Of a stretch of 64,000 bases of DNA, positions 16,867 to 38,869 are shown piece after piece. The position numbers and the translations under genes are program-made. The stretch is taken from contig NCGX01000011.1 of the NCBI GenBank assembly GCA_002256995.1, positions 1-64,000 on the forward strand. The letters are read 5' to 3'. Source of the stretch: Hydrogenophilales bacterium 16-64-40. Its GTDB lineage: Bacteria > Pseudomonadota > Gammaproteobacteria > Burkholderiales > Thiobacillaceae. The notes under the pieces were generated by a model. It did not search any database. It saw only the letters and a program-made list of their open reading frames with translations, and was not told where the DNA came from. Each line of letters starts with the position of its first letter. Position 1 is the first letter of the stretch.

Positions 16867-17900
16867 ATGTTTGAACTGATGGATGTAGACACCCAGGATG
16901 CAGTGATCAAGGTCATCGGCGTGGGCGGCTGCGGCGGCAACGCGGTCGATCACATGATCAGCTCGGGCTTGACCGGCGTGGAATTCATCGCCATCAACAC
17001 CGATGCGCAGGCCTTGAAGCGCAACCAGGCCAAGCTGCAGCTGCAGCTGGGCAATGGCGTGACCAAGGGCCTGGGCGCCGGCGCCAACCCCGACATCGGC
17101 CGCGAAGCCGCGCTGGAAGACCGCGAGCGCATCGCCGAACTGATCGACGGCGCCGACCCTTCATGTTCGAAGGCAAGCGCGTGCGCGCGGCCAACGCCGG
17201 CATCGAAGCGCTGGCGCGCCACGTCGACTCGCTGATCATCATCCCCAACGAAAAGCTGATGCAGGTGCTGGGCGACGACATCTCGATGCTCGACGCCTTC
17301 AAGGCCGCCAACGAAGTGCTGCATGGTGCCGTCGGCGGCATCGCCGAAGTCATCAACTGCCCGGGCCTGGTCAACGTCGACTTTGCCGACGTGCGCACCG
17401 TGATGTCCGAGATGGGCATGGCGATGATGGGCTCGGCACAGGCCAGCGGCGAAAACCGCGCCCGCATCGCCGCCGAACAGGCCGTCGCCAGCCCCTTGCT
17501 GGAAGACGTCAACCTCGCCGGTGCGCGCGGCGTGCTGGTCAACATCACCGCATCAAGCACCGTCAAGATGCGTGAAATCCACGAGGTGATGAACACCATC
17601 AAGGAGTTCACCGCCGAGGAAGCCACCGTCATCGTCGGCCAGGTGCTCGACGACAGCATGGAAGGCGCCCTGCGCGTCACCATGGTCGCCACCGGCCTCG
17701 GCAGCCCGATTGCCCGCCAGCAGGTTAAGCCGATGCAGATCATCCGCACCGGCACTGACGATGCGCCGATGATGATGGGCGGCAGCGACGAAGTGCCCAA
17801 CGTGATGACCAGCCGCCGCTCGCGGACCATCCAGGCGATGACCGATTCCGGCATCGACACCCTGGACATCCCGGCCTTCCTGCGCCGCCAGGCCGACTGA
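16867..17900 (+). pseudogene. ftsZ: Cell division GTPase FtsZ, disrupted by an internal frameshifting deletion
   Basis: FtsZ is the tubulin-like GTPase that forms the division ring. Codons 1-97 from ATG 16867 (strong ribosome-binding site) are normal, ending AELIDGAD at about 17157. The sequence then jumps directly to the segment encoding [14 protein letters not shown] (from 17160) in another frame, continuing normally to DTLDIPAFLRRQAD at 17900. By comparison with E. coli FtsZ, about 37 codons plus one base (near 112 bases) are missing, including the GGGTGTG GTP-binding signature. As written, translation from 16867 stops at 17235 after a 25-residue out-of-frame tail. An ATG at 17163 has no ribosome-binding site. 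The remaining halves are well conserved, including the C-terminal FtsA-binding peptide, so loss is recent or artefactual. Confidence 0.9.
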
Positions 17901-17973
17901 GCGTGGTTGTTGCCGCTTTAGCGGCTTTACAACCACGGCCTACCCCTTGCGGGTGGAGCGTGGTTGTTGCCGC
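17901..17973 (+). repeat. Inverted-repeat element copy A after ftsZ, with partial second start
   Basis: GTGGTTGT (17903-17910) pairs with ACAACCAC (17929-17936), with an inner GCCGC/GCGGC stem, giving a hairpin that may end the dcw transcript, although no T-run follows. A 40-base unit at 17915-17954 recurs at 18023-18062 with one mismatch, and the 16-base GCGTGGTTGTTGCCGC at 17901-17916 recurs at 17958-17973. Confidence 0.75.
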
Positions 17974-18022
17974 ATACGATTCCACATGGGCTTTAGCCCA
18001 TAGTGGGTCGGAGTCCTTTAGG

Positions 18023-18062
18023 GCTTTAGCGGCTTTACAACCACGGCCTGCCCCTTGCGGGT
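18023..18062 (+). repeat. Inverted-repeat element copy B (40-bp direct repeat of 17915-17954)
   Basis: Differs from the copy at 17915-17954 by a single A/G change. Its ACAACCAC (18037-18044) can pair with GTGGTTGT at 17960-17967, enclosing a further small hairpin TGGGCTTTAGCCCA near 17987-18000. The arrangement suggests a duplicated or mobile intergenic palindrome rather than coding sequence. Confidence 0.75.
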
Positions 18063-18074
18063 AGCGCGCAGGGG

Positions 18075-18159: not shown

Positions 18160-19074
18160 ATGATCAAGCAACGCACCCTGAAGACGCCGGTCAAGGCAAC
18201 CGGCGTCGGCCTGCATTCCGGCGTCAAGGTCGAGATGACCCTGCGCCCGGCCGGCCCCAACACCGGCATCGTGTTCCGGCGCATGGACCTCGACCCGCCG
18301 GCCGAGCTCAAGGCCGATCCCTACCTCGTCACCGACACCCGGCTGTGCTCGATGCTCGAATCCGGTCCCGCCAAGGTGTCCACCGTCGAACACCTGATGT
18401 CCGCGCTCGCCGGCCTCGGCGTCGACAACCTGCTGGTCGACCTCACCGGCCCCGAAATTCCCATCATGGACGGCTCCTCGGCGCCGTTCGTTTTCCTGCT
18501 GCAATCGGCCGGCATCGTCGAGCAGGATGCGGCGAAGCGCTACGTGCGCATCAAGCAGACGATCGAGGTGCGCGACGGCGACAAGTGGGCGCGTTTCGTC
18601 CCGCACAACGGCTTCAAGGTCGAGTTCACCATCGACTTCAAGCACCCCGTGTTCGACAAGAGCGGCAAGACCGTCAGCATCGATTTCGCCGACACCGCCT
18701 ACACCAAGGAGGTCGCGCGCGCGCGCACCTTCGGCTTCATGCACGAGGTCGAATACCTGCGCAACCAGGGCCTGGCGCTGGGCGGCTCGCTCGACAACGC
18801 CATCGTCATGGACGAATTCCGCGTGCTGAACCAGGACGGCCTGCGCTACGACGACGAGTTCGTCAAACACAAGGTGCTCGACGCCATCGGCGATCTATAC
18901 CTGCTCGGCCACCCCATCATCGGCGCCTTCGAAGCCTACAAGTCCGGCCACGCGCTCAACAACGCCCTGCTGCGCGAACTGCTGCAACACCAGGAGGCCT
19001 GGGAATACGTCAGCTTCGAGCGTGACGAGGATGTCCCCCTCGCCTTCCTGCGCCTGCACCCCCTCACCGCATGA
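18160..19074 (+). CDS. lpxC: UDP-3-O-acyl-N-acetylglucosamine deacetylase LpxC
   Basis: Zn-dependent deacetylase performing the committed step of lipid A synthesis. The 304-residue product has [20 protein letters not shown] at the N-terminus, the zinc histidine in [28 protein letters not shown] and the C-terminal zinc/catalytic motif [17 protein letters not shown]. Location immediately after ftsZ is classical. A possible -10 element TAAAAT lies just upstream, without a convincing -35. The end overlaps the following small gene in an ATGA. Confidence 0.97.
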
Positions 19075-37568: not shown

Positions 37569-38126
37569 CTAGCGCGACTGCGCGATCATGTAGTCGACTG
37601 CGGCATTGATGTCGGTATCCGACAGTGACGGGTTGCCGCCCTTGGCCGGCATCGCGCCCTTGCCGCGAATGGCCGCGGTGTAGAGCGCACCCACCCCCTG
37701 TGCCAGACGCGGGCTCCAGGCGGCCACATCGCCGATTTTCGGCGCGCCTGCCACGCCTTTGTCATGGCAGAAGGCGCACGCCTGGCGGTAGATTTTCTGG
37801 CCGTGCACGAGATCGGGGGCAGCCGCGGCCGGCGCAGTTGCAGCGGGGCTGGCTTCAACGGGTTGGACAGCAGCAGGCTTGCTGGCTGCGGGCTGAGCGG
37901 CCTTCGGTTCTGGCTGAGCCGGGATGGCGGCAGAGGGGGGGGGCTCGGCTGGCAGGGGCTCGACAACCTGGGTGGCCGGCTCGGCCGTGGCTACGGGCGC
38001 AGGTTCGACCTGTGTGGCTTCCGCCACAGGGGGCTCGGCGGCGGGTGCGGGCACGTCTTCCGACTTGCCGCAGGCAAGCAGGGATGCGGCAGACGCGATG
38101 ATCGTGAAAGCGGTGATGAACTTCAT
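37569..38126 (-). CDS. c5-type cytochrome lipoprotein with long Pro/Ala linker
   Basis: A 185-residue lipoprotein (LLACGKS, lipid cysteine about residue 19) with an Ala/Pro/Glu-rich linker of about 85 residues and a C-terminal cytochrome c5 domain: haem motif CAFCH (in IYRQACAFCHDKGVAGAPKIGD) and the methionine ligand in GKGAMPAKGGNP. The long linker would let the haem domain reach away from the membrane, suggesting an electron shuttle between membrane complexes. A gene for a related cytochrome is directly upstream. Confidence 0.85.
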   Translation of the reverse strand: MKFITAFTIIASAASLLACGKSEDVPAPAAEPPVAEATQVEPAPVATAEPATQVVEPLPAEPPPSAAIPAQPEPKAAQPAASKPAAVQPVEASPAATAPAAAAPDLVHGQKIYRQACAFCHDKGVAGAPKIGDVAAWSPRLAQGVGALYTAAIRGKGAMPAKGGNPSLSDTDINAAVDYMIAQSR

Positions 38127-38170
38127 GATGCTCCTTCAATTGGCCGCAGTGGTCTGCAGCAATGCGGACC

Positions 38171-38740
38171 TTATTTGTTTTCGACGCCTGCTGCGGGCGC
38201 GGCAGCCGCATCCGGCGTAGCAGCAGGCGCAGCAGGTGCAGCGACCGCCGGCTCCTTGAACGAGGCCCCGGCCGAGTTGGCCATGTAGACCACTGCGCGC
38301 GCCACTTCCACATCTGACAAGTCGCCGTCACCGCCACGCGGCGGCATCTGGCGGATGCCTTCGATCGCGTGCTTCACCAAGGTGTCGTAGCCCTGGCCAA
38401 GGCGGCCGCTCCAGTCCCCTTTGTTGTTGAATCGGGGTGCGCCCAGCGCACCCGAACTGTGACAGGACGAGCACACTGCATCATAGACTTCCTGCCCGGC
38501 TTTTTCGACCCGGGGAGCGTTGGCGTCAAGCGCGACCAGTTGGGCGAAAGGCTTGATGCGTGCGAGGGTCGCTTTCTGGGCGGCTTCGCTGGTGGTGTCT
38601 GCCTGCTGTTCTTCCTGGATGCCGAGCACCAGTTGCACGATCAGGAAAATCGCCAGCAGGGGCGCGAATAGCCCGGCAAGAAGGGAAATGATGACTTCCT
38701 GCGGGGTGGCTTGAGTCATCTTGGCGTGCGGATCGGCCAT
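38171..38740 (-). CDS. Membrane-anchored cytochrome c5
   Basis: A 189-residue protein with an uncleaved N-terminal membrane anchor (IISLLAGLFAPLLAIFLIVQ), a cytochrome c5 domain with CSSCH (YDAVCSSCHSSGALGAPRFN) and the Met ligand in IRQMPPRGGDGDLSD, then an Ala/Pro-rich C-terminal tail. It precedes the lipoprotein cytochrome by 44 bases. c5-type cytochromes deliver electrons to terminal oxidases or denitrification enzymes; the specific partner is not shown. Confidence 0.87.
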   Translation of the reverse strand: MADPHAKMTQATPQEVIISLLAGLFAPLLAIFLIVQLVLGIQEEQQADTTSEAAQKATLARIKPFAQLVALDANAPRVEKAGQEVYDAVCSSCHSSGALGAPRFNNKGDWSGRLGQGYDTLVKHAIEGIRQMPPRGGDGDLSDVEVARAVVYMANSAGASFKEPAVAAPAAPAATPDAAAAPAAGVENK

Positions 38741-38869
38741 GAACGTGTCCTTGAAGAAGGGGAGGATCGAAAGCGGCGATTATAAGGAAAGCAACCCCCG
38801 CAGGAAAGGGCGGCGCGACATCCGTCGGATGGACGCCACGCGGCAAACCGGCTATTCTTCATAGTCCTT

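Follow-up and report, generated by a model that had tools for sequence, protein, structure and literature searches.

A 112-base gap in the ftsZ gene of a Thiobacillus-type genome, most likely a local assembly error

The cell-division gene ftsZ is essential, and the copy in the window (the whole stretch of 64,000 bases analysed here) is broken. Does the organism itself carry this lesion, or did the lesion arise when the genome was assembled? The window corresponds to bases 1-64000 of contig C18 in the organism's own genome assembly (G000). This contig is 145,684 bases long and contains no N, and its first 20 kb are identical to those of the window, ftsZ junction included. The gene consists of two arms and the junction between them:

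16867..17157, + strand: left arm of ftsZ, 97 codons ending in ...LIDGAD, with the glycine-rich GVGGCGGNA; matches Pfam PF00091, positions 2-107 of 190
17157..17158, + strand: junction at which 112 bases of the relatives are absent, as placed by alignment with relatives; one shared C leaves a one-base ambiguity
17160..17900, + strand: right arm of ftsZ in another frame, FMFEGKRV...DIPAFLRRQAD and a stop; matches Pfam PF12327

The source organism is a Thiobacillus-type bacterium. Its nearest named relative is Thiobacillus denitrificans strain RG (L002), with 98% protein identity over the right arm, and the match figures of genome G002 equal those of L002. A 16S gene was found neither in G000 nor in G002, whose record title reads as an isolate, in a search whose control matched 9 of 14 genomes, so that the missing 16S gene is uninformative.

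A reading made from the window's sequence alone had proposed that roughly 112 bases are missing from ftsZ, with loss of the GGGTGTG segment and a shift of frame. Comparison with relatives confirmed each of these points. A gap of 112 bases lies at 17157/17158 against all six of the longer syntenic stretches (G002, G011, G024, G032, G016 and G020). When the window was aligned with eight Thiobacillus-type relatives, it was the only gapped sequence, with a single gap of 112 bases. These eight were drawn from ten loci with at least 86% protein identity; the other two, L005 and L007, were left out because their contigs start less than 6 kb upstream. Across the genus, a 741-base ftsZ query crossed the junction unbroken in 47 of 56 genomes, G000 being counted among the 56. 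The other nine comprise G000, broken at the junction, G003, in which a contig starts there, and seven genomes without such a match.

The GGGTGTG loop is the nucleotide-binding signature of the tubulin family. It is present in L002 and gone from the window gene, and the same 112-base loss shifts the frame. The corresponding bases of L002 encode MLFITAGMGGGTGTGAAPVV...VVTK, with one base left over. Consistent with this, the Pfam Tubulin profile (PF00091) matches the left arm only and ends at position 107 of 190, leaving the GTPase domain incomplete, while FtsZ_C (PF12327) matches the right arm at 104.2 bits over positions 1-94 of 95. No single open reading frame covers both FtsZ domains, the frames differing on either side of 17157/17158; within the right arm, an ATG-initiated open reading frame starts at 17163. 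The intact FtsZ of L002 aligns end to end, absent part included, with the solved FtsZ chain 9isk_A. Set beside such a canonical bacterial FtsZ, neither arm of the window gene is unusual; the assembled copy departs from it by the missing GGGTGTG loop and the broken frame.

Both arms were also said to be well conserved, and codon comparison with L002 bears this out. Across the 97 codons of the left arm, 8 differences are synonymous and none is non-synonymous; the right arm, 247 codons with its stop, has 25 synonymous differences against 4 non-synonymous ones, and no internal stop. Together this gives 33 synonymous and 4 non-synonymous differences over 344 codons and no further lesion, a pattern that points to strong purifying selection on both arms. 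A decaying pseudogene was considered and rejected, since the arms show neither relaxed constraint nor additional lesions relative to L002. A real frameshift would put the right arm out of frame with the ftsZ start, yet this arm is constrained like a working gene; the lesion must therefore be extremely recent, if the organism has it at all. Had it been old, the right arm would have been free to drift, and so the low non-synonymous count speaks for an error of assembly.

The proposal that the neighbouring genes are intact, and decay not general, held at the level of reading frames supported by relatives. From 235 open reading frame matches in relatives, 52 relative-supported reading frames were defined in the window, antisense frames included, and for 49 of the 52 some relative gave a coverage of 85% or more. 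Below this value were ftsZ itself, an antisense frame at about 50.5 kb lying over two intact genes, and a variable region at about 38.2 kb. Thus, in about 64 kb of syntenic sequence, no gene other than ftsZ was found to be clearly broken. In the variable region (37569-38764), small open reading frames with CxxCH motifs read as cytochrome c-like. Their arrangement varies among relatives, and G032 is the sole relative that aligns across the region in one piece.

A systematic loss of 100-160 bases along the contig was also considered. Several gaps were seen against G002 alone, and the ftsZ gap alone recurs in all six relatives, leading us to reject this explanation. When five further relatives were compared, most of the other gaps against G002 proved to be segments that are extra in G002 or variable between relatives. 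Two larger gaps remain, one of about 600 bases at 50.53 kb against five of six relatives (not G011), and one of about 490-520 bases at 42.97 kb against four of six (G011, G024, G016 and G020). Small separate genes fill the 50.53 kb gap in the five relatives examined and the 42.97 kb gap in the two examined, and no cut gene was seen at the edges of the 50.5 kb gap. Both places therefore look like ordinary differences in gene content.

At about 50.5 kb, five of the six relatives (not G011) carry a secreted-looking protein of about 140-150 residues that is absent from the window, and at about 42.97 kb a lipoprotein-like protein of about 160 residues, also absent from the window, is present in G024 and G016. 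Contig C13 of G002 carries extra segments of about 100 bases at about 14.3-14.4 kb and about 18.8-18.9 kb of the reverse-complemented stretch, possibly small intergenic repeats. Against the five other relatives, the 14.3 kb segment counts as an insertion in three comparisons and the 18.8 kb segment in all five. The intergenic stretch 3' of ftsZ (17901-18065), ahead of the gene starting at 18160, holds a 25-base repeat twice. When as many as 2 mismatches are allowed, this repeat occurs in 2-11 copies in each of nine genus genomes searched, the organism's own included, and in none of four genomes from other genera. It looks like a genus-specific REP-like element.

Assembly quality outside the window was assessed on the contig part carrying rpoB and on a 40 kb stretch carrying the atp genes. 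Open reading frames supported by at least one other relative were considered, and only matches above 60% identity could be flagged as partial. The rpoB part held 73 open reading frames with relative support and a hit, eight of them flagged. Six of these run off the contig end, and the remaining two, at about 12.7 kb on the strand opposite the rpoB match, were taken for antisense open reading frames. None of the 91 such frames in the atp stretch was flagged. No broken conserved gene was identified in either sequence, and errors of this kind are not frequent in the G000 assembly, whose good quality elsewhere counts against an assembly error in ftsZ.

The position of the junction within the gene was compared with exact-word sharing between ftsZ copies. 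Of 57 rows, the 42 genus-like copies with 84% identity or more to the reference were used, and words of 31 bases were scored at 1114 positions. A fraction of 0.475 of the pairs share the 31-mer that begins at the left breakpoint, compared with a mean of 0.063, and this word stands at percentile 0.996; the gene maximum, 0.541, begins four bases upstream. At the right breakpoint, the 31-mer starting there stands at percentile 0.916 and the 31-mer ending there at percentile 0.138. In this test of sequence shared across the genus, the left edge sits at the sharing maximum of the gene and the right edge does not. The lack of a comparable peak on the right counts against the simplest version of an assembly mechanism.

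A further contig end falls at the same place. Contig C40 of G003 starts on query base 324, the very base that ends the left arm in G000, and its first 600 bases are identical to L007 (NCIF01000104.1, titled as a MAG of Hydrogenophilales bacterium). This coincidence is a single case and supports the assembly reading with moderate weight. Judged by cut FtsZ_C matches at contig starts, contigs of G007 and G019 begin elsewhere inside ftsZ.

Three causes had been put forward from the sequence alone: an assembly or cloning deletion, a mixed-population artefact, and a real lesion that a second ftsZ makes up for. The left breakpoint at a shared stretch, the constrained arms and the intact neighbours together fit the first two, and the compensating copy found no support. 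Our preferred explanation, which we hold to be very likely, is that the missing 112 bases were lost through a local error when short reads, most likely from a mixed community, were assembled. Words shared between the genomes of a mixture make graph assemblers lose their way. Here, the contig path would have been broken at, or joined across, an ftsZ stretch that hardly differs between related Thiobacillus species, and whatever lay between the two path ends would have dropped out, leaving the 112-base gap. We infer that short reads from a mixture were the input, that a step of the assembler failed and that G000 is metagenome-derived. At this locus, the ftsZ of the organism itself is very probably intact.

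Local assembly errors are a known fault of metagenome-assembled genomes, and uncurated genomes propagate incorrect protein-coding sequences, according to Chen et al. 2020 (PMC7111523). The ftsZ gap resembles the errors described there in being a localised wrong consensus that makes a protein-coding gene incorrect within an otherwise good contig. It differs in that errors there are defined by a lack of read support, whereas the gap is judged here from the assembled sequence. Mise and Iwasaki 2022 (PMC9723686) trace the absence of ribosomal protein genes from metagenome-assembled genomes to binning and not to assembly; this is a different problem and lends no support to the assembly mechanism proposed here. 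A literature search turned up no paper that joins Thiobacillus, ftsZ and metagenome-assembled.

An unlikely explanation, and the one among the alternatives that survives best, is a real and recent deletion, carried by some of the cells sampled (or by dying cells or a sub-line of a culture) and picked up by the assembler consensus, while the gene is intact in most cells. The clean junction, with a one-base overlap as in end-joining deletions, the absence of further decay in either arm and a contig free of N would all agree with such an event. However, a cell null for ftsZ should not multiply enough to dominate the consensus, and a random deletion does not need a left breakpoint on a stretch shared between species.

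The second ftsZ proposed as compensation did not turn up in G000 (3,098,963 bases in 68 contigs; completeness 100, contamination 2.97). A search of this assembly gave one Tubulin and one FtsZ_C match, both from the window gene. Nor was a copy of the missing segment found in G000 among the 40 of 94 first-look candidates that were scored, the best match reaching 35.6 bits (E 0.0066) over 19 or 29 bases. Short matches of this sort do not support a move of the segment elsewhere in the assembly. None of the 56 genus genomes has two FtsZ_C matches. A second Tubulin match occurs in two of the 35 same-genus relatives searched, in G018 as a short frame and in G004 below the cut-off. The one in G018 (contig C381, 58-534) is a second, more distant ftsZ copy with 72% DNA identity, possibly a contamination of that assembly.

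It is thus highly improbable that a living lineage has fixed the lesion and makes up for it with a second ftsZ outside the assembly (for example on an unassembled plasmid). An assembly in 68 contigs may well be missing sequence, but the completeness rating, the single pair of domain matches, the lack of a doubled FtsZ_C throughout the genus and the persisting constraint on the right arm all stand against it.

We give equally little credence to the idea that a strong hairpin in the GC-rich GGGTGTG region made the sequencing drop out, so that the assembler skipped this part. The missing region is indeed GC-rich in relatives, but the corresponding L002 strand folds at −32.8 kcal/mol compared with a shuffle mean of −30.6 kcal/mol (z −0.77), with 40 of 200 shuffles at least as good, and the many genus genomes counted above were assembled straight through it. 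That the lesion is real and fixed, so that a free-living Thiobacillus-like lineage grows without a GTP-binding FtsZ and divides without FtsZ or by an unassembled replacement, is the most far-fetched reading of all.

A real lesion would put in doubt that FtsZ is essential in a free-living betaproteobacterium, but no result here points that way. The 112-base lesion is most likely not a real feature of the organism. The gap sits where related species share sequence. As a caution, a completeness rating of 100% does not guarantee a working copy of every essential gene, since a single small gap that nothing marks can remove one.
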